Shown here: piece by piece, positions 1 to 41,792 of the stretch | Numbering within the stretch: position 1 is the first letter of the stretch | Layout of the letters: each line of letters opens with the position of its first letter | Source: a virus | Length of the DNA: 41,792 nucleotides | Strand: one strand, 5' to 3' | Virus record (IMG/VR): IMGVR_UViG_3300013137_000005 | Location: 1 to 41,792 of that record | Translations under genes and position numbers: made by a program | Notes under the pieces: model-generated | The model's input: only the letters and a program-made list of their open reading frames with translations | Told to the model about the DNA's origin: nothing | Database searches by the model: none

Positions 1-123
1 CGTCAGAGGTTGTGGCGGACTACGGCCACGACTGGCGGTGGATGAAATCCGCATTTAACGGTTGTGGGCGGGATTAGGCGGGTCTGTCTAATCCCGATTC
101 CGCATAATCACAAGTTAGGACGC
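1..123. repeat. Terminal direct repeat, left copy
   Basis: The first 123 bases are identical to the last 123 bases of the window (41670-41792). The copy holds the last 77 bases of the small coiled-coil gene that starts at 41525, including its TAG stop at 75-77, and then the attI/attC-like site in front of the first cassette. An exact repeat of this length at both ends of a phage contig most simply means that assembly went once round a circular or circularly permuted molecule. A true short terminal repeat is the alternative. Confidence 0.95.
53..120 (+). other. attI- or short attC-like site in front of the cassette array
   Basis: The site runs from ATTTAAC (53-59, fits RYYYAAC) to GTTAGGA (114-120, close to GTTRRRY). 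Between the boxes TTGTG (62-66) can pair with CACAA (109-113), and GGGATTAG (70-77) pairs with CTAATCCC (88-95), leaving an unpaired segment on one side. The right end resembles the entry point of the second cassette locus (TTCCGCATAA, a short gap, then AGTTAGG, at 38130-38151). It could be the primary insertion site (attI-like) or a short 68-bp attC; sequence alone does not decide. Confidence 0.55.
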
Positions 124-132
124 AACGGCAAC

Positions 133-966: not shown

Positions 967-994
967 TGGGCAGCTTATTTCCAGACCGTTAGAC
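873..994 (+). other. attC recombination site 1
   Basis: The left box TCCTAAC (873-879) and right box GTTAGAC (988-994) enclose imperfect inverted arms. AAATCAAGCTGCCC (884-897) reverse-complements to GGGCAGCTTGATTT, and the right arm reads GGGCAGCTTATTT (968-980). The arms match except for one unpaired G, the extrahelical base typical of attC sites. Length is about 122 bp. The methyltransferase stop codon (964-966) lies inside the site. Confidence 0.85.
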
Positions 995-1010
995 GGCTAA
1001 GAGGAAGAAC

Positions 1011-1739
1011 GTGGACGACGTGACACTGTACCTCGGTGACTGCCTGGACATCCTGCCGACGCTCGGCAGGGTGGATGCCGTCGTCACCGATCCGCCATAT
1101 GGGATTGATGAAAGTCGAAAGGCGTCTCGCCGTACCGCAAACGCTAAACCAGATGAACGCTGGCGTGGCCGAGTACCGACAAATTACACATTCGGCACAT
1201 GGGATGATGAACGGAAACAACAGCATGTCGATCTCGCACTTGTAATGACGCAGATGGCTATTGTTTGGGGCGGGAACTATTACGACCTTCCACCGGCATC
1301 GAAATGGCTGGTTTGGGATAAGTGCAATGGGGCGAGTGACTTTGCCGATTGTGAGCTTGCATGGACAAACATCGGTGGAGCTACTCGGTTATTCCGATGG
1401 CTTTGGAATGGTTTCCAGAAGGAAAAGCCAGAAGATAGAGTCCATCCAACACAGAAGCCCATAGCCCTTATGGAATGGTGTCTGAGCTTTCTTCCCGCCG
1501 ATATCACCGTACTCGATCCCTTCATGGGCAGCGGCACGACTGGCGTGGCCTGTGTGCGCACCGGGCGGCGCTTCATCGGCATCGAGATCGACCCCGGCTA
1601 TTTCGCCATTGCGGAGCGACGAATCCGGGAAGCTCAGCTACAACCGCCGTTGCTCCCTAACAACGGGATCAAGCTGACCCGAACAGAGGCTTTTCGTTTC
1701 GAGGATGATTCCTCGGATGTACCGCAGCCCGTAGCGTAA
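1011..1739 (+). CDS. Class-beta DNA methyltransferase, cassette 2
   Basis: This is a 242-residue DNA amino-methyltransferase with DPPY at residues 27-30, HPTQKP at about 145-150 and the SAM-binding motif DPFMGSGTT at 169-177, in the beta order. The GTG start at 1011 has a GAGG Shine-Dalgarno at 1001-1004. It is only distantly similar to the enzyme of cassette 1, so the two probably recognise different sites. From about residue 216 the protein is encoded by attC site 2. Its tail (LPNNGIKLTRT, then DDSSDVPQPV) parallels the tail of cassette 1 (RPNQEIKLPRT, then VDSSDEAQPV), because both are translated from the same attC family in the same frame. Likely role: modification of phage DNA against restriction. 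Confidence 0.9.
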   Translation: MDDVTLYLGDCLDILPTLGRVDAVVTDPPYGIDESRKASRRTANAKPDERWRGRVPTNYTFGTWDDERKQQHVDLALVMTQMAIVWGGNYYDLPPASKWLVWDKCNGASDFADCELAWTNIGGATRLFRWLWNGFQKEKPEDRVHPTQKPIALMEWCLSFLPADITVLDPFMGSGTTGVACVRTGRRFIGIEIDPGYFAIAERRIREAQLQPPLLPNNGIKLTRTEAFRFEDDSSDVPQPVA

Positions 1740-1774
1740 CTTGGGTTACGGGCAGCTTATCCCAATCGTTAGGA
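1655..1774 (+). other. attC recombination site 2
   Basis: The left box is CCCTAAC (1655-1661) and the right box GTTAGGA (1768-1774). The left arm GGGATCAAGCTGACCC (1665-1680) reverse-complements to GGGTCAGCTTGATCCC. The right arm is GGGCAGCTTATCCC (1750-1763), identical apart from an extra T and an extra G on one strand. Two extrahelical bases a few nucleotides apart are the known polarity signal for integron integrase. Length is 120 bp. Confidence 0.87.
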
Positions 1775-1780
1775 CGACCA

Positions 1781-2347
1781 ATGCAAGCGACCTTGTTTCC
1801 CATGACTAGCAATCCAAAGGACGTGGTCTTCACGCCCGACAACGTAGCTCAGGACATGGTGAACTTCTTTCAGCCATCGGGCCGCATACTCGAACCGTCG
1901 AAAGGTGACGGGGCGCTGCTCAAGCACCTGCCTGGGGCTGATTGGTGCGAAATCTCGGAAGGCGTTGACTTCTTCGCCTGTGCTCAGCGGTATGACTGGA
2001 TCGTCGGCAATCCACCCTATAGCATCTTTGCCGACTGGCTACGCCATAGCTTCACGTTGGCGGACGAGATCGTCTATCTGATCCCGATCATCCGATGTTG
2101 GGTTAGCTCGCGCATCATCAAGGACATTCAAGCCTTCGGCGGCATCAAGACGATAGCTGTCTACGATGAGAGTAACTTCCCCGACTGGACAATCAACTTT
2201 GCGATAGGGGCGGTGCATTTCTCACGGGGCTACACGGGCGGGGTTGCCGTGGCTCTGCGTGGCCGTCCTAACAACGGGTTCCACCTGACGCCCTCGGGCG
2301 GCGCGCTGCAACTGAATTTCGTAGAGACGGGCGCAGGTGAACCCTGA
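1781..2347 (+). CDS. Small adenine-specific DNA methyltransferase-like protein, cassette 3
   Basis: This is a 188-residue protein with a Rossmann-type methyltransferase core. The SAM motif ILEPSKGDGA lies at residues 36-45 and the catalytic NPPY at 77-80, the SAM-first order of gamma-type N6-adenine methyltransferases. It is short for that family and shows no separate target-recognition domain, so it may work on its own on a short site or be a reduced enzyme. ATG 1781 is used, with ATG 1802 (residue 8) as an alternative; neither has a convincing Shine-Dalgarno. From about residue 163 the protein is encoded by attC site 3 (tail RPNNGFHLTPSGG onward), and its TGA stop is part of the right arm GGTGAACCCTGA. 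Confidence 0.8.
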   Translation: MQATLFPMTSNPKDVVFTPDNVAQDMVNFFQPSGRILEPSKGDGALLKHLPGADWCEISEGVDFFACAQRYDWIVGNPPYSIFADWLRHSFTLADEIVYLIPIIRCWVSSRIIKDIQAFGGIKTIAVYDESNFPDWTINFAIGAVHFSRGYTGGVAVALRGRPNNGFHLTPSGGALQLNFVETGAGEP

Positions 2348-2356
2348 TCGTTAGAC
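2266..2356 (+). other. attC recombination site 3
   Basis: The left box TCCTAAC (2266-2272) pairs with right box GTTAGAC (2350-2356). The reverse complement of the left arm is GGGCGTCAGGTGGAACCC. The right arm is GGGCGCAGGTGAACCC (2329-2344), the same sequence minus one T and one G. This is a near-ideal 91-bp attC with two extrahelical bases. Confidence 0.9.
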
Positions 2357-2411
2357 CCTTGTGTGCTGATGCGAATCTCGAAAATTCGTTGAAAACCCGT
2401 CCCGAAAACTC

Positions 2412-2440
2412 TTGACATTTTTATGCTTTTGGTGTATACT
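2412..2440 (+). promoter_or_regulatory. Sigma70-type promoter inside cassette 4
   Basis: A consensus -35 TTGACA (2412-2417) is followed after exactly 17 bp by -10 TATACT (2435-2440). It lies in AT-rich DNA (2357-2474) directly after attC site 3, so the cassette brings its own promoter. The next ATG is at 2475, with AAGGA about 10 bases upstream. Confidence 0.85.
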
Positions 2441-2474
2441 GAAAACATAAAAGCCAAGAGAAAGGACAGCAACC

Positions 2475-2759
2475 ATGCAAACATTCACAGCGACATTCAG
2501 CAACGGGCATACAGCCAAGCGCAATTCCGAGCATACATACCGATGGGCGATTGGATACTTTGACAGAGTAACCGGCAAGTCCCGCGCTGTAATTTTTACA
2601 TCCTCAGAGGTGCCTCGTGTATCATGGCAGGCTATTGGGTTAGGAGATTGCTACCGAGGTTTTGGTAGCACTACTCAAAAAGCTAAATGGCAGAAACAGG
2701 TTGAGGCAAAGCGAGAGATGTACTTTTACGAAATCGTCGCCGTTACCGTCAAGGCATAG
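2475..2759 (+). CDS. Unknown 94-residue protein, cassette 4 first gene
   Basis: I do not recognise this protein. It has 94 residues, is basic and polar, has no membrane segment and no cysteine cluster, and shows short beta-like stretches at the start (TFTATFSNGHTA) and end (MYFYEIVAVTVKA). The start ATG 2475 follows an AAGGA ribosome-binding site and the strong promoter at 2412. Its DNA is more AT-rich than neighbouring genes, which fits recent arrival as part of a mobile cassette. It is the first gene of a two-gene cassette and is followed 8 bp later by the next ORF. Function unknown. Confidence 0.7.
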   Translation: MQTFTATFSNGHTAKRNSEHTYRWAIGYFDRVTGKSRAVIFTSSEVPRVSWQAIGLGDCYRGFGSTTQKAKWQKQVEAKREMYFYEIVAVTVKA

Positions 2760-2767
2760 GAGGTCGC

Positions 2768-2953
2768 ATGACACCACGAGGCGGCCCCAGGAAGAACCAG
2801 ACCGGCAGGCCCAAGCGCAACGAACCCAAGAGCAAGCCGGTCTGGTGTGGACAGATGAGCGAAGCTGATCGCAAGCTCATCATGTCATTGACGCCAGACG
2901 AGCGCCAAGCGGCTCTGTTGGAAGCGGCCCGGGTCAAGTTGGCACGGGTCTAA
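2768..2953 (+). CDS. Small basic protein, cassette 4 second gene
   Basis: A 61-residue protein with a highly basic, Gly/Pro-rich first third (PRGGPRKNQTGRPKRNEPKSK) and a helical C-terminal half containing LTPDERQAALLEAARVKLA. This layout suggests a small nucleic-acid-binding or regulatory protein, but no family can be named. A good Shine-Dalgarno (GGAGG, 2759-2763) precedes ATG 2768. It shares the transcript driven from 2412. The stop codon lies in the left box region of attC site 4. Confidence 0.6.
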   Translation: MTPRGGPRKNQTGRPKRNEPKSKPVWCGQMSEADRKLIMSLTPDERQAALLEAARVKLARV

Positions 2954-3043
2954 CCCTGCGTCCCCCTGACTCGCCACCGTGGCGAGATCGTGGACAACGA
3001 GAGTAACGGACGGTGGCGAGCAGGTGAACCCTGACCGTTAGAC
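2948..3043 (+). other. attC recombination site 4
   Basis: The left box GTCTAAC (2948-2954, full match to RYYYAAC) pairs with right box GTTAGAC (3037-3043, full match to GTTRRRY). The left inner arm ACTCGCCACCGT pairs with ACGGTGGCGAG in the right half, again with a single extrahelical T. The right arm continues CAGGTGAACCCTGACC as in sites 3 and 5. The centre holds an additional perfect hairpin around CTCGCCAC/GTGGCGAG. Length 96 bp. Confidence 0.88.
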
Positions 3044-3070
3044 CGGACTTCCGGCAATGGAGTGTGCTAT

Positions 3071-3436
3071 ATGCGGTGGTACGAAAAATACCAAGAAAAC
3101 CTACTGAACCTATTCCAGGAAGGCTACAAAATCGCAGACCGAATTAAAAAAGCTGCGATGATGTTTGAGGCACTGGAACATTTGCGCAAAATCAATCTGG
3201 ATCCAGGAGACATACTCATCCTTCGTTATCCCAGGCGTCTTTTATCTTCAGAGATGCACAGAATTCGGGAGTCAATGGAACGAGTATTCCCAGGACATGT
3301 AATGGTCGTTATAGACGAAGGCGCAGAGCTTTCTGTGCTGTCCTCCGGTCTAACGGTCAGGGGTAAGCGGCGGCGGCGCCGTCGAGATCATCGTCATTCC
3401 ACAGCCGGGCCGGCGCAGCCGTCTGGTGAACCCTGA
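3071..3436 (+). CDS. Unknown 121-residue protein, cassette 5
   Basis: Function is not recognised. The start ATG 3071 is preceded by GGAG at 3059-3062 with an 8-base spacer; an upstream in-frame GTG at 3062 is less likely. Residues 1-50 are mainly amphipathic helix (YQENLLNLFQEGYKIADRI). They are followed by an alpha/beta-looking stretch, PGDILILRYPRRLL, then VFPGHVMVVIDEGAELSVL. From about residue 93 the frame reads through attC site 5, producing an arginine-rich tail (GKRRRRRRDHRH). The TGA stop again comes from the attC right arm GGTGAACCCTGA. A small soluble protein is likely; its role cannot be inferred. Confidence 0.65.
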   Translation: MRWYEKYQENLLNLFQEGYKIADRIKKAAMMFEALEHLRKINLDPGDILILRYPRRLLSSEMHRIRESMERVFPGHVMVVIDEGAELSVLSSGLTVRGKRRRRRRDHRHSTAGPAQPSGEP

Positions 3437-3445
3437 CCGTTAGAC
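3348..3445 (+). other. attC recombination site 5
   Basis: The left box GTCTAAC (3348-3354) with GGTCAGGGGT pairs to ACCCTGACC next to the right box GTTAGAC (3439-3445). The right arm GTGAACCCTGACCGTTAGAC is the same as in site 4. The inner part (GCGGCGGCGGCGCC) is less regular than in sites 3 and 4. Length 98 bp. Confidence 0.8.
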
Positions 3446-3457
3446 GGAGGCTACATC

Positions 3458-3694
3458 ATGTTGTACATCATGTGCCCGAACGAGTGGTCAACTGTGTATC
3501 ACCTGGCCGAGTCAATGCCCAAGCACCCAGGGCGTTATCGGTCGTGGTGCGAAGTCGGCGGGTATTTGGTTGGAACCCAATTAGAACACTGGGGGAACGG
3601 CCACGGCGGAGAATCTTCCATCTTCCAACCAATCGCCGTCGAAGGGATTCCTGTTGGTCGGCGGTTGTGCAAGATGTGCGCCCGCTCCCTCTAA
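3458..3694 (+). CDS. Unknown 78-residue cysteine-containing protein, cassette 6
   Basis: I do not recognise this protein. It has 78 residues, with cysteines at the N-terminus (MCPNEW), in the middle (SWCEVGG) and near the C-terminus (CKMC). The widely spaced cysteines could hold one metal ion or disulfide. There is no membrane segment. ATG 3458 has a good Shine-Dalgarno (GGAGG, 3446-3450), starting right after attC site 5. It is the last cassette of the array: the stop codon lies in the left box (CTCTAAC) of a degenerate terminal site. Confidence 0.6.
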   Translation: MLYIMCPNEWSTVYHLAESMPKHPGRYRSWCEVGGYLVGTQLEHWGNGHGGESSIFQPIAVEGIPVGRRLCKMCARSL

Positions 3695-3750
3695 CAGGCT
3701 GTTCCACGCTGACCGGGCGGGCGGCCCGGCGAAACAGCCCCGTCCCGGTA
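3689..3750 (+). other. Degenerate terminal attC-like site (site 6)
   Basis: A left box CTCTAAC (3689-3695) is followed by GGCTGTT (3697-3703), which pairs with AACAGCC (3733-3739). The expected GTTRRRY right box is absent; the sequence there reads CCCGGTAGCG. The right half belongs to a block also found after the second cassette locus. It may be a decayed attC, or the pairing may be partly chance. Confidence 0.4.
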
Positions 3751-3770
3751 GCGCCGGGGGAGGGCAGGGG
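3725..3770 (+). repeat. Flank block A, shared with the second cassette locus
   Basis: The stretch GAAACAGCCCCGTCCCGGT (3731-3749) followed by GCCGGGG is nearly repeated at 38553-38597 (GAAACAGCCCCTTCCCGGT, then GCCGGGG). Each copy contains a short hairpin CCCGG/CCGGG and lies just upstream of a plus-strand gene (3776 and 38615). This makes it the common downstream border of both cassette loci. Confidence 0.7.
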
Positions 3771-3775
3771 AAAAC

Positions 3776-3970
3776 ATGGGGCTACAGACTGAAACCGCCC
3801 ACTGCGGAGCGTGCAGCGGGCCGATGGTGTTGCGCATGGGCATCGAGGGCGCTTGGTTCCGCTGCCTGGATTGCGGCGAGGAGACCCCGCCGCGCGAGAC
3901 CGTCAAGATCGCTGACCTGGATGTGGTGTGGACGCCGGTTGCAAGGTCGGCGCCGAAGGAGCAACGATGA
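3776..3970 (+). CDS. Small zinc-ribbon protein
   Basis: A 64-residue protein with two CxxC pairs (CGAC at residues 10-13 and CLDC at 30-33) in the typical spacing of a zinc ribbon, which is probably a nucleic-acid or protein contact module. No other domain is visible. It begins the plus-strand operon 3776-5985 right after flank block A. Its last codons overlap the next ATG (ATGA at 3967), so the two genes are translationally coupled. Regulatory or accessory role is likely; nothing more specific can be supported. Confidence 0.65.
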   Translation: MGLQTETAHCGACSGPMVLRMGIEGAWFRCLDCGEETPPRETVKIADLDVVWTPVARSAPKEQR

Positions 3971-33036: not shown

Positions 33037-33294
33037 ATGTCCGACCGCGCGGCGACGGCCCCAGCAGGGGAACAACAACCAGGAAGGCTCGAATCGGAAA
33101 TTCAGAACGCCCTCGCTGGGACCGCCACCGGACGGTCTGAACAGCCGTCCTCCTCTCCGTCCTCCTTTGCAAAGCCTGCTGAGGGTCTGGGCAACTCTCA
33201 GCAGGCCGGGGAGATCCCGCTCGACTGGATCACCACGGCGATCCTGGGCGGCATGTTCGTCCGGGCCGCGCGCAAGCTCGGGGTGATCCCCTGA
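33037..33294 (+). CDS. Unknown protein upstream of integrase
   Basis: An 85-residue protein. The first 60 residues are polar and Ser/Gln/Pro-rich (PSSSPSSFAKPAEGLGNSQQ), probably disordered. The last 25 form one hydrophobic helix (DWITTAILGGMFVRAARKLG), amphipathic or membrane-associated. ATG 33037 directly follows the preceding TGA stop; its own stop overlaps the integrase ATG (TGATG). Function unknown. Confidence 0.5.
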   Translation: MSDRAATAPAGEQQPGRLESEIQNALAGTATGRSEQPSSSPSSFAKPAEGLGNSQQAGEIPLDWITTAILGGMFVRAARKLGVIP

Positions 33295-34232
33295 TGATGA
33301 CCTGGGCGGAGTGTATCGACGCATGGCTGGCCGCCGTGCGCAGTCGGAGCGGCTCGGAGCACAGCGTGCGAGCCTATCGGGATGATGTCAGGCTGTTTGA
33401 ACTCTGGCATGGAGGGTGGGAAGACGTGGACGGTGCCACGTGTCATGCCTGGGTGCGGCTGTTGCGGACGGTCGGCAACGGCCCGGCGACGATCAATCGC
33501 CGGGTGGCGGCCCTGCGCTCGCTCTATCGTTTCGCAGCCACAGAGACCGGGCGTAACCCGTTGTGGCCGTGGCCCAACCCGTGGGCCAGCCGGACCCTGA
33601 TTCAGCGGGTGGATCGTCGGCTGCGGCTGCCGACTGCCGACCAGATCACCCGGCTGCTCGGCGCGATTGACCGGGATACGATCATCGGCAAACGGGATTA
33701 CGCCATGATCGGCGGCCTGTTCCTGACCGCCCGCCGCCTCTCGGAATGGAGTGCGCTGCGGTGGGGTGACGTGCACGTCACCCCAGACGGCTGGTGGATC
33801 GAATACGTCGGAAAGGGCCACCGCAACGGACAGCAGGCGCTCCCGCCCGCGCTCGCCGCGGCGATCGAGGAATGGCTGCGGGCCGCCGGCCACTGGCCGC
33901 CGCAGCCTGACGACTATATTTTCGTCTCCTGCCGGCCCGCGCCTCGGTGGGAGCGGCATCTTCACCCGGGCCAGGTGTGGCGCCGCCTGGTTCTCTACAA
34001 CGAACGCAGCGGCGTGCCGTGTCACCCGCACACCCTGCGCCACATCGGGGCCCGCGTGCGCAGGGCGGCCGGCGCCGACGTGTGGGAGTTGCAAAAACTA
34101 TTGAATCACTCCCACCTGAACACGACCGAAATCTACACGGCGAGCGTGCTCGACGTGCCCGATCCCGACCGCTACGCCGCGGCCGTGGAAGCCTTTTTAC
34201 CCCCCGTGCGGGCCGAAACTCACGCGATATAG
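33294..34232 (+). CDS. int: Tyrosine recombinase (phage integrase)
   Basis: A 312-residue XerC/D-like tyrosine recombinase. Residues 1-85 are the SAM-like core-binding domain (SEHSVRAYRDDVRLFELWHG). The catalytic domain carries Arg148 (ARRLSEW), Lys174 (GKGHRNG), His246 and Arg249 (HPHTLRH), His272 (LNHSHLNTTEIY) and nucleophile Tyr281, so the full active set is present. It has no arm-binding N-terminal domain. The segment between the conserved lysine and the HxLR box is short, without the extra helix that integron integrases (IntI) carry, so it is the phage's own integrase rather than the enzyme for the attC cassettes. It is transcribed with the three small genes upstream. Confidence 0.93.
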   Translation: MMTWAECIDAWLAAVRSRSGSEHSVRAYRDDVRLFELWHGGWEDVDGATCHAWVRLLRTVGNGPATINRRVAALRSLYRFAATETGRNPLWPWPNPWASRTLIQRVDRRLRLPTADQITRLLGAIDRDTIIGKRDYAMIGGLFLTARRLSEWSALRWGDVHVTPDGWWIEYVGKGHRNGQQALPPALAAAIEEWLRAAGHWPPQPDDYIFVSCRPAPRWERHLHPGQVWRRLVLYNERSGVPCHPHTLRHIGARVRRAAGADVWELQKLLNHSHLNTTEIYTASVLDVPDPDRYAAAVEAFLPPVRAETHAI

Positions 34233-34246
34233 GTATAGCTATCGCG
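34223..34246. other. Inverted repeat over the integrase stop
   Basis: CGCGATA (34223-34229) and TATCGCG (34240-34246) form a perfect 7-bp inverted repeat around TAGGTATAGC, with the integrase TAG stop inside. The AT-rich core flanked by inverted arms beside an integrase gene makes it a weak candidate attP core, or simply a terminator. Confidence 0.35.
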
Positions 34247-34267
34247 CGGTGCCCAGGAGAACGAGCG

Positions 34268-34684: not shown

Positions 34685-35167
34685 ATGCGTAATCCCGACG
34701 AAGGTTCTATGACGGTCGTGTTGTATGTCATTTTGATCACGGCGGCGCTGTTCCTGGCGATCTTTCTCGCTATCATCCTGCCCGCCGACGCATCCGCCGC
34801 CCCGTCACAACCCGACCTGTGCACGAAGTGGGTGATCACCCCCCCGTGCTGCAGGACGATCCTGGGCGTGCGCATCTGCTCCTGTTTCTCCTGGCGCTGT
34901 GCGGCCCCGACCGCCGGCCGGGTTGACGGCCTGGCCTCCCCGCTGCCCGGAAACAAGGGTGGTTGCGGCCGCAACAACTGGTGGACGGGCCTCTCCTGCA
35001 CCGTCACCGACGCCGGCAACGGCTTCGTTTCGGCCCACTGCGAGCACGGCCTCTGGTTCAGCCGCCAGAACACGGCCCGCTCGTTCCGCCTTCAGCAAAA
35101 CATCCGGGTGGCCGGCTGCGAAAATGAGGGCGGTGAGTTGGCGCCCGTGCGGATCGCATTCCGATGA
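34685..35167 (+). CDS. Secreted or anchored cysteine-rich protein
   Basis: A 160-residue protein with one hydrophobic N-terminal segment (VVLYVILITAALFLAIFLAI, about 11-30) that ends in ADASAAP, compatible with a signal peptide cleaved near residue 39 or with a membrane anchor. The exported part holds about ten cysteines (CTK, PCC, ICSCFSWRC, GGCG, LSC, AHC, AGC), suggesting several disulfides and a compact surface domain. GGAGG lies before ATG 34685. Exported, disulfide-rich products near integrase genes are good candidates for lysogenic conversion or superinfection exclusion (inference). Confidence 0.65.
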   Translation: MRNPDEGSMTVVLYVILITAALFLAIFLAIILPADASAAPSQPDLCTKWVITPPCCRTILGVRICSCFSWRCAAPTAGRVDGLASPLPGNKGGCGRNNWWTGLSCTVTDAGNGFVSAHCEHGLWFSRQNTARSFRLQQNIRVAGCENEGGELAPVRIAFR

Positions 35168-35475
35168 CGGCGACGAAGCTCGAACAGATCGCCGGCGGGA
35201 TGCGCAAGGCGATTGTCGAACGGCCCTACGGCTGGACCCGGCACACCCTGCCGGGGGGCCTCGACCTGGTGCTCTCCCACGTCGGTGAACGTTGGCGGCT
35301 CGCGCTCCGCCGTGAACGGGTCTACCCGTCCGATACGGAGGCGGAGATCCTCAGCCGGGCCTTCGCCGTGGCGGAGGGCACGGAACCGGAGCGCCGGAAA
35401 CACATGGAAAAGCATCCGAGTTCCGAACGCCAAATCGACTGGCGCATCATCGAATACAACTGGATCGAATCGTAG
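35164..35475 (+). CDS. Unknown protein, accessory region
   Basis: A 103-residue soluble alpha+beta protein (WTRHTLPGGLDLVLSHVGER, then WRLALRRERVYPSDTEAEIL and SRAFAVAEGTEPERR) with a charged end. The pattern of strand pairs followed by helices resembles small conserved Chloroflexota or phage hypotheticals that bind partners, but I cannot name a family. ATG 35164 overlaps the stop of the cysteine-rich exported protein (ATGA), so the two are made together. Confidence 0.6.
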   Translation: MTATKLEQIAGGMRKAIVERPYGWTRHTLPGGLDLVLSHVGERWRLALRRERVYPSDTEAEILSRAFAVAEGTEPERRKHMEKHPSSERQIDWRIIEYNWIES

Positions 35476-35494
35476 CACAGGGGAGGGCAGGCGG

Positions 35495-35812
35495 ATGATC
35501 GGGGACGTTTCGGGCACTATTCCGGTTCTGCCGGTCGTGTTGGCCGGGCTGCTGTTGTTCGGCATCGGCTACAACCTCCTCGTGGCGTGGCTCATCCGCC
35601 ACGGCTATGCGGAGGGGTACACCTGGGCGCTGGTGGCCGGCGGGGTGACCTTTACCCTGGGCGGACTGGCGATCCTGGACCCGCAGGCGGCCATGCTCGC
35701 CATGCTGGCCTTCGCCTGTTCCGGTGCGCCGATGTCGATAGGGGCCTGGTGGCGGCACGTCCGGCAGCGCAAAACCGGGCAGGATGCGCAGCGGCACGAG
35801 GCGCTCCGATGA
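35495..35812 (+). CDS. Three-helix membrane protein
   Basis: A 105-residue protein with three membrane helices (IPVLPVVLAGLLLFGIGYNL; TWALVAGGVTFTLGGLAIL; AMLAMLAFACSGAPMSIGAW) and a basic cytoplasmic tail (RHVRQRKTGQDAQRHEAL). GGGAGGG lies before ATG 35495. It is similar in layout to the holin-like protein at 30517, without clear sequence identity. It could be a holin or an envelope accessory; the operon gives no decisive hint. Confidence 0.6.
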   Translation: MIGDVSGTIPVLPVVLAGLLLFGIGYNLLVAWLIRHGYAEGYTWALVAGGVTFTLGGLAILDPQAAMLAMLAFACSGAPMSIGAWWRHVRQRKTGQDAQRHEALR

Positions 35813-36024
35813 CCGAGCAGCGGCCCTGGCCGAACCTGGCGAAGGAGGCCCGCGACCGGGCCGCCGAAGAGGCGATTCGGGGGCAGCGAGCTCTCCGGCC
35901 GCTGGTGGCCGGCGAGGCGTTCGATAGGACAGAGACGTTGCGGCGGCTGGCGGTCGCGCTGGATGCGTTCCAGCAGATCGCCCGTTTCATGGAGACGTCC
36001 GGCGCGCCGACCCGGCCGGAGTGA
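35809..36024 (+). CDS. Small helical protein, unknown
   Basis: A 71-residue, charged, helical protein (PNLAKEARDRAAEEAIRGQR, then ETLRRLAVALDAFQQIARFM). ATG 35809 overlaps the previous stop (ATGA). No motif is recognised; it may be a soluble partner of the membrane protein before it. Confidence 0.55.
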   Translation: MTEQRPWPNLAKEARDRAAEEAIRGQRALRPLVAGEAFDRTETLRRLAVALDAFQQIARFMETSGAPTRPE

Positions 36025-36033
36025 GGGGGGACA

Positions 36034-36417
36034 GTGAGCGAACACACCGTCTATGCGGCAATGGTGACACAGGTCAACGGTCTGACCGCCGAACGTGACA
36101 CCATGCGCGAGCAGATCGCCGGCCTCGTAGCGGAGCGGAATGCGCTGCGGGGCCTACTCGACTACTGGCGCGCTCGCGCGTGGTACTGGCGCGCTCGCGT
36201 CTACAGCGGGCAGCAAGAGGCAGAGTCAACAGAAATCTCCGATGCGCCCCGCTATCAAATCATGGGCGTTACGAACAGTTTTTGCCCAGATTGCGGAATG
36301 GGGGCGTATCTGCTTGCGCCGGAGAACTGGAATATATCCATGCCAGCCTTTTATCTGTGTGGCGGGTGTGGCTATATCGGGCAGATCGGTGTTGGGCCGG
36401 TCATTGACAATCACTAG
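36034..36417 (+). CDS. Coiled-coil plus zinc-ribbon protein
   Basis: A 127-residue protein starting at GTG 36034 (a GGAG-containing G-rich stretch lies just upstream). Residues 5-60 are coiled coil (NGLTAERDTMREQIAGLVAE) with an internal duplication of YWRARxWYWRARV, caused by a 16-bp tandem repeat (TACTGGCGCGCTCGCG twice). Residues about 83-115 are a zinc ribbon (CPDCG and CGGCG). The second half is more AT-rich and uses different codons from the first, so the gene may be a recent fusion. Confidence 0.6.
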   Translation: MSEHTVYAAMVTQVNGLTAERDTMREQIAGLVAERNALRGLLDYWRARAWYWRARVYSGQQEAESTEISDAPRYQIMGVTNSFCPDCGMGAYLLAPENWNISMPAFYLCGGCGYIGQIGVGPVIDNH

Positions 36418-36419
36418 AT

Positions 36420-36640
36420 AGCGCCAGCCAGGGCGCTGCGGGGCCGCCCGTTGCGGCACAGAGTGGATGGATAAATCAGTGGGGAGTCCGGTCGGGTAGT
36501 CCCCCGGTGGGCCGCTAAACCCCTGGGTGTCGCTGCAAATGCGGCACGACCGGCATGAGACGAAAAAGCCGAGTGGTGCGAACACTCGGCGCCGGGCGGA
36601 GCGCCGACCCGGTGAACGGATGATACCACAAGGAGCGTCA
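36420..36640 (+). ncRNA. Hairpin-rich non-coding stretch, candidate structured RNA or terminator array
   Basis: About 220 bp without a convincing gene. It contains AGCGCC/GGCGCT near its start, GGGGA/TCCCC in the middle, and a perfect GCCGAGTG (36568-36575) with CACTCGGC (36583-36590) around a 7-base loop. The last hairpin is preceded by AAAAA, so read on the minus strand it has a U-tract. It does not fold as a tRNA. Either a structured RNA or a set of transcription barriers ahead of the next operon. Confidence 0.4.
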
Positions 36641-36641
36641 C

Positions 36642-36821
36642 ATGGCCGAACTACCTTCGGAATTTACCGGTAAATTTTATTGGCTGGCCTTCACGAAGGC
36701 CACGACCGAGGCGGAGGCCCGCGCCGGCTTCCGTGCCCGCTACGGCCGGGAGCCTGAACACGTCGGCTACGCCGGCGGCAACGTGCTGGCCGGGCCCGTG
36801 CCGGAAGGCTCGCACCGATGA
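36642..36821 (+). CDS. Small soluble protein (59 residues), unknown
   Basis: A 59-residue protein below common length cut-offs. It has AGGAG (36631-36635) before ATG 36642 and an ATGA overlap with the next gene, both strong signs of translation. The sequence (SEFTGKFYWLAFTKATTEAE, then FRARYGREPEHVGYAGGNVL) suggests a small alpha/beta unit with a strand-helix-strand arrangement. No family is recognised. It opens the membrane-protein operon 36642-38090. Confidence 0.7.
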   Translation: MAELPSEFTGKFYWLAFTKATTEAEARAGFRARYGREPEHVGYAGGNVLAGPVPEGSHR

Positions 36822-37219
36822 ACGCCGACACCGAAAACGAAACTGAAACCGGCAACGGCGCCACGGGCTGGATGATCCTATCGGCGCTGCTCGCCCTCGT
36901 AGTGATCGTCGGCAGCCTGCTGTACCTGGTCAACGGGCAGGCGGCCCGCATGGAGGATGCACGGGCCGAACAGTGGAACGCCCGTGCCCAAGTCGAACAG
37001 GCGCGCGCCTACGGACAAACGCAGATCGCCCAGGCGCAGGTCGAGATCGCCCGCGCGCACGAAGAGGGCAGCACGGAGCGCGCCCAGGTGTTCGCCCTGA
37101 CGCTGCGATCCTTCACCGCCGACAACCACCTCGAACTGACGCTCGTCTCCGTCGGGGTCGTGCTGCTGGCGATCCTCCAGGTCGTGCAGGTGCTCACCCG
37201 GAGAGGAGGGGACGCATGA
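36818..37219 (+). CDS. Two-helix membrane protein with central coiled coil
   Basis: A 133-residue protein. An acidic N-terminus is followed by membrane helix 1 (WMILSALLALVVIVGSLLYL, about 18-37), a long Ala/Gln/Glu-rich coiled coil (EQWNARAQVEQARAYGQTQI, about 45-95), and membrane helix 2 (LTLVSVGVVLLAILQVVQVL, about 108-127). A coiled coil spanning between two membrane helices suggests an oligomer on one face of the membrane. ATGA overlaps link it to genes on both sides. Unknown role; an envelope or exclusion function is plausible. Confidence 0.65.
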   Translation: MNADTENETETGNGATGWMILSALLALVVIVGSLLYLVNGQAARMEDARAEQWNARAQVEQARAYGQTQIAQAQVEIARAHEEGSTERAQVFALTLRSFTADNHLELTLVSVGVVLLAILQVVQVLTRRGGDA

Positions 37220-37410
37220 ACCGCTACGTATATCAGGTCTCCAACCGTGCCAGCCTGCTGGTGCTGCTGGCGCTCGACGTGCTGATCGGTTCCGTCATCA
37301 TCCGGGCGCTACTCCCGGAAGGCTACGAGTGGGTGCTGCCCCGTGTGGCGTGGCCGCTGTGGGGCATCGGCTGGACGCTCATCGCCCTGCGGCTGCGGCG
37401 GAGGGGGTGA
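37216..37410 (+). CDS. Small two-helix membrane protein
   Basis: A 64-residue protein with two hydrophobic helices (SLLVLLALDVLIGSVIIRAL and VAWPLWGIGWTLIALRL) and a basic C-terminus (RLRRRG). ATG 37216 overlaps the previous stop, with GAGGGG upstream. It is encoded between two larger membrane proteins and probably belongs to the same membrane complex. Confidence 0.6.
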   Translation: MNRYVYQVSNRASLLVLLALDVLIGSVIIRALLPEGYEWVLPRVAWPLWGIGWTLIALRLRRRG

Positions 37411-37412
37411 CG

Positions 37413-38090
37413 ATGAAAACGAACTCCGCCCCGCTCACATCGGGCATGGAACAGAGCGCCGAAGCCGCCGCCTCAATCTGGATGTCCAACGTCGTGTCAC
37501 CCGTCGCGCAGAACGTGGTCGGCGGGGTGGGCGTGGCCGTCGTCGCCGGGCTGCTCGGCGCGCTGGCGTGGCCCGACGACCTGGCGCTGATCGCCAAGAT
37601 CGCCGGGGTCGCCGGGCTGATCGTCTTCGGCGCATCGTGCGCGGTGCGCGCCTTCCGCGACGAGATCGGGATGCTCGCCGCGGCCTACGCCGCCGGGCAG
37701 CGGGACGAAACCGTGCTGGCGCTGCGGGCGGAGAACGACCGGCTGATCCAGGAGATCGAGCGGCTGAAGTCCGAGGGCATGGTCGCCCACGCCTGGGGCG
37801 CGCGCGAGGCCGCCGAACGCCTCGCGCAGGACTACTACCGGATCATGGCGACGGGCGGCAACCTGGATACCTGCCTCTCCCGTGAGCAGGCGATGCTCCG
37901 GGGCTACAGCCGGGCACAGTGGGAGCAGGGCGTGCAATTCCTGCGCAATGCCGGCGTGCTGGCGAAGGGCAACCGGGGCGGCGTGTGGACGGCGGCGGGG
38001 GAGGAAGCGGCGCTGGCCGCCATCGCCCGCCACGCGGCGACGACGCGCGTCAGTGTGCGCGCGGCGAACGGGGAAATGAGCAAGCTGTAA
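37413..38090 (+). CDS. Membrane protein with cytoplasmic coiled coil and winged-helix-like tail
   Basis: A 225-residue protein. Two membrane helices (VVGGVGVAVVAGLLGALAW, about 35-53, and IAKIAGVAGLIVFGASCAV, about 60-79) are followed by a short coiled coil (LALRAENDRLIQEIERLKSE, about 103-122) and a helical C-terminal domain. The last part (REQAMLRGYSRAQWEQGVQF, then LRNAGVLAKGNRGGVWTAAG) resembles a winged-helix end. A membrane-tethered DNA-binding or sensor protein is possible. It is the last gene of this operon; two short hairpins with T-tracts follow the stop. Confidence 0.6.
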   Translation: MKTNSAPLTSGMEQSAEAAASIWMSNVVSPVAQNVVGGVGVAVVAGLLGALAWPDDLALIAKIAGVAGLIVFGASCAVRAFRDEIGMLAAAYAAGQRDETVLALRAENDRLIQEIERLKSEGMVAHAWGAREAAERLAQDYYRIMATGGNLDTCLSREQAMLRGYSRAQWEQGVQFLRNAGVLAKGNRGGVWTAAGEEAALAAIARHAATTRVSVRAANGEMSKL

Positions 38091-38118
38091 GCAGCTTTTC
38101 ATCCCCCACCGGGGTTTT
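38082..38118 (+). terminator. Tandem intrinsic terminators
   Basis: AAGCTG-TAAG-CAGCTT followed by TT (38082-38099), then CCCC-ACC-GGGG followed by TTTT (38104-38118). Both stems are short, but the U-tracts are properly placed. They end the operon before the second cassette locus. Confidence 0.6.
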
Positions 38119-38152
38119 ATGCAGAAACTTTCCGCATAAATCGTAGTTAGGC
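38114..38152 (+). other. attI-like entry site of the second cassette locus
   Basis: The site contains TTTATGC (38117-38123) and GCATAAA (38134-38140) as an inverted pair and ends in GTTAGGC (38146-38152), a full GTTRRRY box. The stretch TTCCGCATAA, a short gap, then AGTTAGG also occurs in front of the first array (98-119). There is no matching RYYYAAC close by, so it resembles an attI-type simple site more than an attC. Confidence 0.55.
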
Positions 38153-38175
38153 CGGACTTCCGGCAAGAGGCAACC

Positions 38176-38424
38176 ATGAACGCCAAAACCTACAATCAGG
38201 CGATGACCAAGTTGTTCTTCGGCGGCGACCCGCTCGCCATGACGATGCGCGACGGGTTGCGCCAAATTGATGAATTGGTTCAGGAACGCCGCGAGACGCG
38301 GCGATTGCGAGCGCCAGAATGGTACTCGCATGAACTGCCTTGCCCGTGCGGATGTGGTCTAATCGGCGTTTGCGACGCGCAGTTGGCGCGCACGGCTGAC
38401 GCAGACGAGGACATCCCGTTCTAG
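38176..38424 (+). CDS. Unknown small protein, cassette 7 (second locus)
   Basis: An 82-residue protein. The N-terminal 45 residues are helical and charged (DGLRQIDELVQERRETRRLR), followed by a tight cysteine cluster CPCGCG and a further Cys (IGVCDAQL) that could bind zinc, then an acidic end. ATG 38176 follows GAGGCAACC. It is enclosed by an attI-like site (38114-38152) and a well-formed attC (38433-38522), so it is a one-gene cassette. The leader GGCCGGACTTCCGGCAA (38150-38166) nearly repeats that of cassette 5 (GACCGGACTTCCGGCAA, 3041-3057). Function unknown. Confidence 0.65.
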   Translation: MNAKTYNQAMTKLFFGGDPLAMTMRDGLRQIDELVQERRETRRLRAPEWYSHELPCPCGCGLIGVCDAQLARTADADEDIPF

Positions 38425-38432
38425 GCCGTCCG

Positions 38433-38522
38433 GCCTAACACCAGTTCCAGCCGACTCGCCTACGCTCGCCGATGCGGACGGCTCAGGATGACACGGCGAG
38501 CGGCTGAACATCACCGTTAGAC
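38433..38522 (+). other. attC recombination site 7 (second locus)
   Basis: GCCTAAC (38433-38439, full RYYYAAC) pairs with GTTAGAC (38516-38522, full GTTRRRY). The left arm (38444-38460) reverse-complements to GGCGAGTCGGCTGGAAC. The right arm is GGCGAGCGGCTGAAC (38495-38509), the same minus one T and one G. The two extrahelical bases fall in the same relative positions as in attC site 3, so both sites belong to one attC family. Length 90 bp. Confidence 0.92.
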
Positions 38523-38552
38523 GACCCGGAACCCGGAACGGGATCGTCCCGG

Positions 38553-38597
38553 CCCGATGAAACAGCCCCTTCCCGGTGAAGCCGGGGTGGGGGAGTG
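38553..38597 (+). repeat. Flank block B, copy of the block after the first array
   Basis: GAAACAGCCCCTTCCCGGT followed by GCCGGGG nearly repeats 3731-3757. It contains the hairpin CCCGG-TGAAG-CCGGG and lies 18 bp upstream of ATG 38615. Between attC site 7 and this block (38523-38552) is another inverted pair, ACGACCCG / CGGGATCGT. Confidence 0.7.
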
Positions 38598-38614
38598 CTA
38601 CAGGAGAGGACATA

Positions 38615-38977
38615 ATGAACGATCTACTCAACCAACTTCAGGCCGTCATCGAGACCGCCGAAACCAACCGGATCGACGCCGAGCGATGGCACAACCTGGT
38701 CACCATGCTGGGTGATCTGGGTTACGGGCCGCGCATCGAGCCGGCGCAGATCGCCGAGCTCGTGCCGAATCTCCGTGGCCTCCAGGAACTCGCGTCCTCG
38801 ACGCAGGAGGTCGGGCCGGCGTCCGCCGGCCCGAAAATGCCCCGCCGCAAACTCACCCTCGCGGACGAACACAACATCATGGCGCTCGAATCCAAGGGCT
38901 GGTCGCCGGAGCAAATCGCCGACGACCTCGGCCTCGCCAAAAGCGCCGTCCGCCAATACATCGCCGACCATGCGTAA
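38615..38977 (+). CDS. HTH DNA-binding protein upstream of the replication genes
   Basis: A 120-residue protein. The N-terminal 60 residues are helical (LLNQLQAVIETAETNRIDAE). The C-terminal 45 (LTLADEHNIMALESKGWSPE, then QIADDLGLAKSAVRQYIADH) are a clear resolvase/sigma-type helix-turn-helix. AGGAGAGG precedes ATG 38615. It is followed within the same operon by a zinc-ribbon gene and the RepA-like helicase, so it may be an initiator or regulator of replication. Confidence 0.7.
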   Translation: MNDLLNQLQAVIETAETNRIDAERWHNLVTMLGDLGYGPRIEPAQIAELVPNLRGLQELASSTQEVGPASAGPKMPRRKLTLADEHNIMALESKGWSPEQIADDLGLAKSAVRQYIADHA

Positions 38978-39257
38978 CCTGGCCCACGCCATCACCCGGG
39001 CAGCGGCCCGGGTCCCCGGCCCGGTGGCCGAGCGCAGCGTCGCCGCCGTGACAGCCTGGCGCACGCGCACCGTCGCCGACGTCCGGATCCCGGCCCCGCA
39101 GCCCACGACGCGCCTGCTGCGCATCGCGCCGGGTGAAATGTGGTGCGCCCGCTGCGCGGAGACCGTCGCCGGCGATCACTGTATGCGCTGCGGGAGTAAT
39201 CGCTTCTACCCGGCCACGCTGGTGCTGCGGCCGGACGAATACTACATCGCGACGTAA
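38970..39257 (+). CDS. Zinc-ribbon protein, replication region
   Basis: A 95-residue protein. The first 50 residues are Ala/Arg/Pro-rich. Residues about 57-75 hold CARC and CMRCG, a zinc ribbon, followed by a short beta end (NRFYPATLVLRPDEYYI). ATG 38970 overlaps the preceding gene by 8 bp. It lies 100 bp before the helicase gene. Possibly a small DNA-binding factor of the replication operon. Confidence 0.6.
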   Translation: MRNLAHAITRAAARVPGPVAERSVAAVTAWRTRTVADVRIPAPQPTTRLLRIAPGEMWCARCAETVAGDHCMRCGSNRFYPATLVLRPDEYYIAT

Positions 39258-39359
39258 TCCGTCGGGGCGACCCTCGCTGTCGCCCCACTGTACCAATAAA
39301 CTGATCTTATCACCACACGCGACCGCCAACGTCGCGCGAAGATTCGACAGGAGACCAGC

Positions 39360-40676
39360 ATGGCCCGCCGCCTCAGCCAGCAGATCCAGAATATCGCCGA
39401 CTGGATCAACGGCATCGAACTCCAGCCGTACCCCGAACCCGACGACTTTGCCGCCGGCGCCCTCCGCACCGCCTGGCGCGCCATCTGCGCGTCAGACCCC
39501 GGCGACGAGGGCATCGCCTCCTATCGGGAGAAATGCCTGGGCCTGATCGCCCCCATCATGAAGGGCTTCCCTAACGGCGAGGCCCTCTACAATCGCATCC
39601 GGTCCACCATCCCATCGACCGTCAAACGGCCGTTCCCCTCGCTGCGGGACATCGCCGCCGATCTGCTGCCCATCCAATGGGCCTGGCCCAACTGGCTGCC
39701 CATCGGGATGCTCACTCTGCTGGCGGCCCGGCCCGGCTCCGGCAAATCCATGCTGGCGCTCGATCTGGCCCATCGCATCATTGCCGGCCAACCCTGGCCC
39801 GACGGCCAGCCCATGCACCGCCCCGGCGCCAGCGTGATCTACGTGGACGGCGAGAACGTACCGCAGATACTCAACGAGCGCGCCGAGAAATGGCAGATGG
39901 ATCGCAACAACCTCTATCTGCTCCTGCCCGACGAGGATGATGTCATTCTCGATCTGTCCACGGCGCGCTACCAGGACAAACTCGCTCAGATGGCCTACCG
40001 CCTCGCGCCCGGCCTGATCGTGGTGGATTCGCTCGGCTCGGTCATGGGCAAGGGCGAAAACGCCATCGAGGACGTCCGTGCACTCCTGGCCTACCTCGCC
40101 GGCCTCGCCAATCAGAACGATTGTGGGCTGCTCCTCATCCACCATCTGCGGAAGGCCAGCAACGGCCAGATGAGCCTCCTCGATACCGTTGACCCGGATA
40201 TGATCCGGGGATCCTCCCACATCACAGCCATGGCCCGCGTCGCCTGGGGCCTGGCCACCGTCCAGACCGGCCCCGATCCGAACCGCAACGGGCCGCGCAA
40301 GCTGGAGGTGATCAAGTCGAACCTCTCCCGCTACCCCGATGCCCTGGGCATCACCCTGGAACCGTTGCCCGATGGCGATGCGGTGAAAATGGTCTACGCC
40401 CTCACCGCACCGGAGCCGTTCCGGGAAGCGACCACCGGCGACGAAGCGGCCGCCTGGCTGCTCGGCTATCTGGCGGACGCCGGCAAGCCGGTCAAGCCCG
40501 CCGAGGTGATCGCGGCCGCGGCCGAGGCGGGCTTCAGCCGGGCGATGGTCTACCGGGCACGCGAGGCGCAACAGAGCGAGATCATCAACACCATTGGGCG
40601 CAAAAGTCCGGCCAACTGTTGGGCGCTGCCTACCACTGTAAACGCCGGCGCCGACGACGAGGAACCAGCCGAATGA
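39360..40676 (+). CDS. RepA-like replicative helicase (RecA-fold AAA ATPase)
   Basis: A 438-residue protein of the RepA/AAA_25 type. Walker A is ARPGSGKS (residues 123-130) and Walker B LIVVDS (220-225). The motif LLLIHHLRK (258-266) and SHITAMARVAWGLATVQTG (about 285-305) are hallmarks of this hexameric family. The C-terminal 80 residues (EAAAWLLGYLADAGKPVKPA, then EVIAAAAEAGFSRAMVYRAR) form a winged helix. It should unwind the origin for theta-type replication. AGGAG precedes ATG 39360. Repeats that may be the origin lie 20 bp after its stop. No phage primase or DNA polymerase was found, so the host replisome is presumably recruited. Confidence 0.92.
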   Translation: MARRLSQQIQNIADWINGIELQPYPEPDDFAAGALRTAWRAICASDPGDEGIASYREKCLGLIAPIMKGFPNGEALYNRIRSTIPSTVKRPFPSLRDIAADLLPIQWAWPNWLPIGMLTLLAARPGSGKSMLALDLAHRIIAGQPWPDGQPMHRPGASVIYVDGENVPQILNERAEKWQMDRNNLYLLLPDEDDVILDLSTARYQDKLAQMAYRLAPGLIVVDSLGSVMGKGENAIEDVRALLAYLAGLANQNDCGLLLIHHLRKASNGQMSLLDTVDPDMIRGSSHITAMARVAWGLATVQTGPDPNRNGPRKLEVIKSNLSRYPDALGITLEPLPDGDAVKMVYALTAPEPFREATTGDEAAAWLLGYLADAGKPVKPAEVIAAAAEAGFSRAMVYRAREAQQSEIINTIGRKSPANCWALPTTVNAGADDEEPAE

Positions 40677-40698
40677 GCGAAAATCGCCCCAAAAACCG

Positions 40699-40792
40699 TA
40701 ACTGTCTCAAGAGTCTCAAGAGTCCACTGTTTTAACACACCCCTATACGTGAGACAGTTAGACCGCTAAGACAGTGAGACAGTGAGACAGTT
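40699..40792. repeat. Clustered short repeats after the helicase gene, candidate origin or iterons
   Basis: TAACTGTCTCA (40699-40709) and TGAGACAGTTA (40750-40760) are a perfect 11-bp inverted pair. AGACAGT occurs at 40752, 40769, 40777 and 40785, the last three in an 8-bp tandem. TCTCAAGAG is also tandemly repeated (40705-40722). The stretch is AT-richer than its surroundings and lies between the helicase and the next gene. This is an iteron-like arrangement, or alternatively an operator cluster. Confidence 0.6.
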
Positions 40793-40815
40793 GCAAAATG
40801 GAGGCCCATGCGACG

Positions 40816-41349
40816 ATGACCGCCATCTCCTACCTGGTGATCCTGACCCTGACCGGATGCCTGATCTACATCCTACTCGCCGGGTTGCGGCCCGGCCTCA
40901 CGGAGGCTCTGACCGATGACAATCAACTGGAGCGACCTGCAACTCAACGGGATGCCCGCGACCCTGCGGGCACTGGAACAACTCGACAAACGCCTGGACA
41001 GCCTGGCGTCACAGCACAACCTGCTGGCGCACCAGGTGGATCAACTCCACCCGGACAACCTGAAAGCGCGCATCGCTGCCCTGGAGACCCTCGTCTCTGC
41101 CCTCTCCGCTCGGCTGGACGAGCAGGAATACCGGCGGAGATCCGGGAGATAGTGGCCGATCTGGGTCACGGCTGGCGCATCGAACGGGCGGAGGGAGCGC
41201 CGTCAATGGTGTCCCCGCTGCTGCCACCGGACGCGCCGCCGTCCGAGCCAGCCACGCCGTCCGAGCCGGCCACAACCACACCGACCGCCCCGGCGTTGAC
41301 CGGCCCCCGTCCCGTGGCGGCGTTGCTGCCGGGAGTGATCGGGCGATGA
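40816..41349 (+). CDS. Short membrane protein frame overlapping a coiled-coil gene, copy 1
   Basis: Only the first 35-40 residues look real: a single membrane helix (ISYLVILTLTGCLIYILLAG) with a short tail. GGAGG at 40800-40804 lies 11 bases before ATG 40816; another ATG in frame is at 40798. The frame stays open to 41349 without a stop, but from 40916 a coiled-coil protein is encoded in another frame. From about 41145 this frame encodes EIREIVADLGHGWRIERAEG, which matches the C-terminus of the related protein at 41525. So the frame contains two meaningful ends with a low-complexity middle. See the finding on the frameshifted paralogue. Confidence 0.45.
   Translation: MTAISYLVILTLTGCLIYILLAGLRPGLTEALTDDNQLERPATQRDARDPAGTGTTRQTPGQPGVTAQPAGAPGGSTPPGQPESAHRCPGDPRLCPLRSAGRAGIPAEIREIVADLGHGWRIERAEGAPSMVSPLLPPDAPPSEPATPSEPATTTPTAPALTGPRPVAALLPGVIGR
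40916..41152 (+). CDS. Coiled-coil protein, copy 1, apparently frameshifted
   Basis: A 79-residue coiled-coil protein (TLRALEQLDKRLDSLASQHN, LLAHQVDQLHPDNLKARIAA, LETLVSALSARLDEQEY). It ends with RRRSGR. In the -1 frame the DNA then continues with a segment closely resembling the C-terminal part of the protein at 41525 (VADLGHGWR versus VADYGHDWR). The gene probably lost its tail by a one-base indel, or the sequence carries an error, or ribosomes shift frame. The long, Pro/Ala/Thr-rich extension to 41349 would then be its true C-terminus. Confidence 0.6.
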   Translation: MTINWSDLQLNGMPATLRALEQLDKRLDSLASQHNLLAHQVDQLHPDNLKARIAALETLVSALSARLDEQEYRRRSGR

Positions 41350-41531
41350 AACATTGGCGACAGATCATGCCGGACGTCTACGGCCCGGCGCTGCAACCCT
41401 GGCAACCGCAGCGGAGCGGGAGGCGCAATGTTGGTAATCTCCTACGTGGTGATCGTGATTATCGCCGGGGCGCTGGCGTACATCGTCGTGGCGGGCACCT
41501 TAGGTCTCGCCGAGGAGCAACGACATGCTGA
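41346..41531 (+). CDS. Possible small protein, weak evidence
   Basis: A 61-residue frame whose ATG (41346) overlaps the preceding TGA (ATGA). Only the first 27 residues (KHWRQIMPDVYGPALQPWQP) look protein-like. The remainder is Arg/Gly-rich and overlaps the membrane-protein frame at 41428. It may be a short coupled gene or a chance frame. Confidence 0.3.
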   Translation: MKHWRQIMPDVYGPALQPWQPQRSGRRNVGNLLRGDRDYRRGAGVHRRGGHLRSRRGATTC

Positions 41532-41727
41532 CGAGACAGCAGATCGAGAAAGCGGGCTACCGGGAACTGGTAGCGGATCACTGCGAACTGGTGGAGCGCG
41601 TGACGAAGTTGGAGCAACTGTTTGCCGAGATGGCCCAACGACTCGCGCCGCAACCCGAGCCGCGCACCACGTCAGAGGTTGTGGCGGACTACGGCCACGA
41701 CTGGCGGTGGATGAAATCCGCATTTAA
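41428..41727 (+). CDS. Short membrane protein frame, copy 2
   Basis: The N-terminus (LVISYVVIVIIAGALAYIVV) is a single membrane helix closely similar to that of the frame at 40816 (ISYLVILTLTGCLIYILLAG). GGGAGG lies just upstream of ATG 41428. As in copy 1, the frame lacks a stop where the coiled-coil gene starts (41525) and runs on, in low-complexity sequence, to 41727. The functional product may be only the helix plus a short tail, or may join the coiled-coil frame by a frameshift. Confidence 0.45.
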   Translation: MLVISYVVIVIIAGALAYIVVAGTLGLAEEQRHADETADRESGLPGTGSGSLRTGGARDEVGATVCRDGPTTRAATRAAHHVRGCGGLRPRLAVDEIRI

Positions 41728-41746
41728 CGGTTGTGGGCGGGATTAG
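41525..41746 (+). CDS. Coiled-coil protein, copy 2, next to the cassette array
   Basis: A 73-residue protein with a helical, coiled-coil body (LTRQQIEKAGYRELVADHCE, LVERVTKLEQLFAEMAQRL) and a C-terminal motif SEVVADYGHDWRWMKSAF shared with the frameshifted copy 1. The gene crosses the contig junction: its last 77 bases are repeated at 1-77. Its final residues (NGCGRD) and stop lie within the attI/attC-like site at 53-120, so the cassette array begins inside the 3' end of this gene. Confidence 0.65.
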   Translation: MLTRQQIEKAGYRELVADHCELVERVTKLEQLFAEMAQRLAPQPEPRTTSEVVADYGHDWRWMKSAFNGCGRD

Positions 41747-41792
41747 GCGGGTCTGTCTAATCCCGATTCCGCATAATCACAAGTTAGGACGC
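41670..41792. repeat. Terminal direct repeat, right copy
   Basis: Identical to bases 1-123. In the circular molecule only one copy should exist. The unit length is therefore 41,669 bp, and 41746 is followed directly by the array starting at position 78 of this window. Confidence 0.95.

Follow-up and report, generated by a model that had tools for sequence, protein, structure and literature searches.

The window, the whole stretch of DNA analysed (41,792 bp, an IMG/VR virus record), had a 123-bp direct terminal repeat (1-123 = 41670-41792). It thus represents a circular genome with 41,669 bp of unique sequence, and carried the tailed-phage genes for terminase, portal and major head protein. 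Gene cassettes were located at two loci, six at locus 1 and one at locus 2. As the window is circular, just a few kb separate the loci once the contig ends are joined, and this interval contains phage genes. At locus 2 the first-pass annotation had placed an ORF (38176-38424) between a GTTAGGC box (38146-38152) and an attC site (38433-38522), and all of these coordinates were confirmed. The features were as follows.

69-96, + strand: strong hairpin directly upstream of the locus-1 attI (-18.4 kcal/mol, z -3.6)
98-120, + strand: predicted attI of locus 1, best of 158 GTTRG boxes by a bacterial attI profile (11.9 bits)
115-3750, + strand: locus-1 array of six cassettes (starts 115, 989, 1769, 2351, 3038, 3440)
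133-2347, + strand: three DNA methyltransferase genes in cassettes 1-3 (133-966, 1011-1739, 1781-2347)
875-994, 1657-1774, 2268-2356, 2950-3043 and 3350-3445, + strand: five locus-1 attC sites (descriptor scores 11.7-16.2)
3722-3767, + strand: locus-1 downstream border, before the ORF at 3776
33294-34232, + strand: Xer-like phage tyrosine recombinase (XerD 103 bits; TIGR02249 40 bits, cut-off 265)
38104-38152, + strand: predicted attI of locus 2, second of the 158 boxes, arms paired at 9 of 10 positions
38147-38516, + strand: locus-2 gene cassette of 370 bp, its start TTAGGCCGGAC pairing with its own R'
38176-38424, + strand: locus-2 cassette ORF, 82 aa, an orphan with a Cys-rich patch (PCPCGCGLIGVC)
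38433-38522, + strand: locus-2 attC (structural descriptor score 14.2)
38550-38595, + strand: locus-2 downstream border of 46 bp with a possible hairpin, before the ORF at 38615

Gene cassettes and attC sites at the two loci

The locus-2 attI comprised a CCCC/GGGG hairpin (38104-38114), inverted arms TTATGCAGAA (38117-38126) and TTCCGCATAA (38130-38139), a spacer (38140-38145) and the R box G/TTAGGC (38146-38152), where the slash marks the crossover point 3' of 38146. The cassette start TTAGGCCGGAC paired over 12 nt, including GTT, with its own R' and over only 5 nt with the following box. When the whole genome was shuffled 200 times with dinucleotides preserved, no site equalled the score of the locus-2 attC, whose folded bottom strand contained the R'/R'' and L'/L'' pairs and extrahelical bases. 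For the 82-aa protein no known family, phage relative or credible PDB match was found, and it was absent from 298 sampled genomes. A simple scan of locus 2 for a sigma-70-like promoter (Pc), which is blind to other promoter types, returned none.

The locus-1 attI consisted of the L box TTCCGCATAA (98-107), a spacer (108-113) and the R box G/TTAGGAC (114-120), with a poorly preserved left inverted arm; owing to the circle overlap it is present again at 41767-41789. No R'' could be recognised in the attC of the last cassette, the end of which is therefore approximate. The methyltransferases were assigned to Pfam N6_N4_Mtase (first two) and phrog_799 (third), and by PADLOC as type II MTase; such cassettes would fit an anti-restriction role against host restriction. 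The 123-bp circle overlap stops 9 bp beyond the crossover of the locus-1 attI. A branch in the assembly graph, if that is why the assembler cut there, would be a hint that the population varies in its cassettes; the cut is possibly arbitrary. A CCGGACTTCCGG-like start was common to locus-1 cassette 5 (3038-3057), the locus-2 cassette (38147-38166) and a cassette of a second phage, G019 (site B; L178 reverse strand, ~7484), which suggests one cassette pool.

attC sites were located with a descriptor requiring paired R' and R'' and paired L arms, small bulges being allowed. Six sites scored at least 11 in the window (five at locus 1, one at locus 2), where shuffles gave a mean of 0.06 per genome, and the seven cassettes and six attC sites were all in one orientation (+). 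In a cassette made by an integron integrase (IntI), the first bases (TTRRRY...) pair with its own R', since both meet in the circular form. Across the seven window cassettes, the reverse complement of R' and the start of the same cassette agreed at 57 of 77 positions. With starts exchanged the mean was 38.9, and the observed value was reached by 1 of 5040 orderings. For eleven cassettes of three phages, 92 own-start matches were counted against 55 with starts exchanged. The cassette ends are formed as IntI makes them. DNA patterns for the attC arms and the downstream border returned no matches in the viral and genome collections searched.

Upstream borders and the attI sites of Chloroflexota

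A shared upstream border had been proposed in the first-pass annotation. Between 98-119 and 38130-38151, 17 of 22 positions were identical (10 in TTCCGCATAA, 1 of 6 in the spacer and 6 in GTTAGG). Pairwise alignment of the two upstream flanks was marginal, with 5% of shuffles scoring equally well, but the shared border was upheld by two other results: CGCATAA occurred only twice in the unique genome (101 and 38133), each time exactly 6 bp 5' of GTTAGG, and the two sites were ranked first and second by a profile of bacterial attI sites.

For this profile, 70 intI loci were fetched and the intI frame was recovered in 68. Among 151 relatives of G355, a Chloroflexota genome, 77 encoded IntI at a score above the curated cut-off. 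Many of the intI loci carried TTATACAG..CTGTATAA-N6-GTTRGGC ~115-250 bp upstream of intI and directed away from it, often preceded by a GGGG-type hairpin. The profile was prepared from 37 intI-adjacent Chloroflexota sites picked by TAGTTRG and distance alone, and those bases were left out of the scoring. When it was applied to the window, the boxes at 114 (11.9 bits) and 38146 (11.4 bits) headed the 158 GTTRG boxes, the next scoring 3.5. In G019 two sites headed 179 boxes with 13.0 bits each (next 2.9), and in control phage loci, gathered by methyltransferase or terminase and excluding G019, three boxes reached 9 bits or more, with a maximum of 9.7.

Individual bacterial sites were then compared with those of the window. 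The locus-2 attI (38110-38150) was identical to the intI-adjacent attI of L228 at 33 of 41 positions without gaps, giving a score of 50 against a shuffle maximum of 30; in the same test the locus-1 attI was weaker (score 28, p ~0.03). Among 400 Chloroflexota genomes the sole exact match was TTCCGCATAAATCATAGTTAGGC in G355, with one mismatch to locus 2. In genome G666, arms TTATGCGGAA/TTCCGCATAA, as in G019, adjoined an intact intI (L320), and two more copies of that attI had no intI nearby. Taking the Chloroflexota type as inverted arms ending TATAA/CATAA, a 6-nt spacer and GTTRG, locus 2 was a full match (arms 9/10) and locus 1 matched in the right arm and box only. On these sequence features, the upstream borders of both loci are attI sites of Chloroflexota type.

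Two or three dispersed attI copies were observed in each of the genomes G360 (L314-L316), G666 (L319-L321), G355 (L200, L317, L318) and G649 (L323, L324). The DNA upstream of the copies was nearly identical, their first cassettes differed, and several had no adjacent intact intI. In G360 the three copies were identical over 82 bp or more of upstream DNA and differed in their first cassettes; an intact intI adjoined one of them and intI remnants a second, and the third had no intI. Several attI copies in one host chromosome, as in G360, make it plausible that a single IntI serves several attI sites there. On the reverse strand of L200 (9652-10930, G355), an attI one mismatch from that of locus 2 was followed by a TIR-domain-like ORF, then by a second attI-like end and a chloramphenicol acetyltransferase-like ORF, both ORFs being recognised by eye.

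The host phylum of the window phage is probably Chloroflexota. A Dehalococcoidia MAG (Chloroflexota) holds a 65% relative of its terminase; the closest terminase relatives came from Nitrospira as well as Chloroflexota genomes. The region 34700-41669 had no DNA relative among 50,697 published phage records. An 11.5-kb record (L083) was 100% identical to the window and ends short of both loci.

Other phages and the origin of the two loci

The pattern TTCCGCATAA-N6-GTTAGG gave six matches in IMG/VR, one of them in G019 (IMGVR_UViG_3300037486_000437), a phage record of 54 kb that has a terminal repeat of 127 bp and encodes a portal protein. The same record was found independently by way of its methyltransferase, which has 67% identity to the cassette-1 enzyme; beyond the methyltransferase cassettes it shared three weakly similar proteins only with the window. 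Of the two attI copies in G019 (ATTCCGCATAAATACAAGTTAG), one preceded a pair of methyltransferase cassettes with attC and the other a single ORF with a truncated attC. The commonest bacterial attI form, CTGTATAAANNRTAGTTRGG, used as a pattern, led to a third phage and a likely fourth. In the third (L277/G549; terminase, RecT, endolysin) the attI was followed by cassettes with attC (reverse strand from ~6440); in the other (L276/G550; terminase, portal) an attI and an ORF lay on the reverse strand at ~1020, with weak evidence for attC. Viral pattern matches L173-L177, L187-L198, L272-L275 and L278-L280 came mostly from AT-rich phages lacking attC and arms and were taken as chance. A CGCATAA-N6-GTTAG match in G018 (L179), with no cassettes beside it and apparently in coding sequence, was also taken as chance.

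The first-pass annotation had proposed a comparison of related phages at the two loci. One relative (L005/G018; AAA protein 77% identical) has kept relatives of the locus-1 neighbours on both sides (45% and 54%), with a few hundred bases between them in which no attI and no attC were found. Exchange of cassettes was not observed in the window phage or in a close relative.

Chance resemblance, or a chimeric assembly, is an explanation to which we attach almost no weight. The marginal pairwise similarity of the upstream borders, taken alone, would speak for it. Against it stand the independent profile, the shuffles and the control phages, together with the circular contig, the related and collinear locus-1 neighbours in L005 and the recurrence of the arrangement in other virus records.

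The downstream borders were ~80% identical over 46 bp, and none of 500 shuffles was as good. Both can form the hairpin described in the first-pass annotation (-22.3 and -21.0 kcal/mol), though not significantly better than shuffles (z -1.6 and -1.4). The core pattern of this border was found in none of the other loci fetched. A border unique to the window among these loci and placed directly before phage genes reads as a repeated phage leader, and the shared border looks like such a leader, outside the recombination site.

The two loci had been read as a duplicated insertion platform rather than one chance capture. The recurrence of the platform, twice in G019 and at least once in the third phage, agrees with the second part of this reading. 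Duplication fared less well. Over 22 bp, the attI core of locus 1 shared 20 positions with G019 and that of locus 2 shared 21 with G355, while the two shared 17 with each other. Each core is therefore closer to an outside site than to its partner, and two acquisitions fit as well or better. On core similarity, duplication of the whole platform is possible but not favoured.

The loci could instead be frozen relics, that is, host integron stretches (attI plus first cassettes) gained by ordinary recombination and carried passively with no action of IntI. No cassette turnover was seen, the only relative sharing the neighbourhood (L005) being distant and having no platform, and the last locus-1 attC and the attC of G019 site B are degenerate, as a relic would have it. 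This origin is nevertheless unlikely, given that attI occurs in four independent contexts in a pair of phages with little else in common, and in one or two more elsewhere, all without intI and at differing genome positions. The attI and attC cores are moreover preserved, and near-identical attI sites carry different cassettes.

Proposed recombination in trans and comparison with known systems

No integron integrase was found above the cut-off in the circular window genome, where the best score (40 of 265 bits) belonged to a Xer-like protein, and none was found in G019, G549 or G550. An inverted repeat (GCGATATAGGTATAGCTATCGC, 34223-34250) lies directly 3' of the phage recombinase gene and is a candidate attP core or terminator.

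Movement of the genes by this Xer-like recombinase, or by host XerC/D as in pdif modules, was considered. The phage does encode such a recombinase, and the left box TTCCGCATAA resembles the XerC arm of dif. However, a XerD-like arm is missing, the gene has no second dif-like site near it, and an attC forms the other border. The arrangement is the same in G019 and G549, which gave no match to a Xer-family profile that was positive in 14 of 14 control genomes, and the homologous bacterial site adjoins intI rather than standing alone. A Xer-based mechanism is accordingly very improbable.

We consider it highly probable that both loci are intI-less attI platforms on a probable Chloroflexota phage, loaded in trans by the IntI of the host. 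That both loci hold cassettes, yet the phage has no IntI, suggests that the host enzyme is borrowed to acquire genes such as DNA methyltransferases. In the proposed mechanism, a host-type attI would sit in the phage genome and attC-bearing cassettes would be inserted at its G/TT by the host integron integrase, acting in trans while the phage is inside the cell. The substrates of IntI would be the attC of a free circular cassette, as a folded bottom strand, and the attI of the phage in double-stranded form; the phage would contribute the site only. Cassettes would join the array at its front, and recombination of attI with attC, or of one attC with another, could release them. The trans action of host IntI, the host phylum and the benefit to the phage are what we infer from these features. 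More broadly, Chloroflexota phages may keep several intI-less host-type attI sites as docking ports and trade genes with the host cassette pool through host IntI during each stay, a tentative generalisation that we rate at slightly less than even.

Entry of cassettes into phages has so far been ascribed to illegitimate or off-target recombination, and a phage attI would be a direct entry point. Two circular phages with little else in common each carried two such sites, and a third phage carried one. With active IntI in the host, any of its cassettes could then board a virus and reach another cell. The idea predicts that the cassettes at 114 and 38146 turn over within the population.

A literature search, with preprints and most subscription papers outside its scope, returned no report of intI-less phages with host-type attI, nor of two such sites per genome, a weak indication that two host-type attI sites on an intI-less phage are new. 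Integrons and CALINs (attC clusters lacking an integron integrase) have been reported in phages (Qi et al., 2023; PMC9892861). In the accessible part of that report, five of six tested phage attC sites were usable by IntI1, methyltransferase cassettes were noted in phages, attI was described with complete integrons and in the IntI1 assay, and CALIN entry was put down to illegitimate recombination. As far as that part goes, the phage CALINs share with the window attC cassettes without intI and methyltransferase cassettes, whereas each array of the window starts at a host-type attI, with two per genome. Under the CALIN rule (at least two attC, no nearby intI), locus 1 with five clear attC sites would be counted and locus 2 with a single attC would escape.

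Of the features of a complete integron, the window has an attI and a one-orientation attC array and no intI gene. The sedentary chromosomal integrons of Chloroflexota are like the window in attI architecture and core and in their one-way attC cassettes, but the window arrays have no intI, hold one to six cassettes and are virus-borne. pdif modules are alike in the XerC-like left box and in a gene moved as a module. They are defined by two dif-like sites, whereas each locus of the window has one CGCATAA, followed by GTTAGG with no XerD arm, and an attC at the other border.
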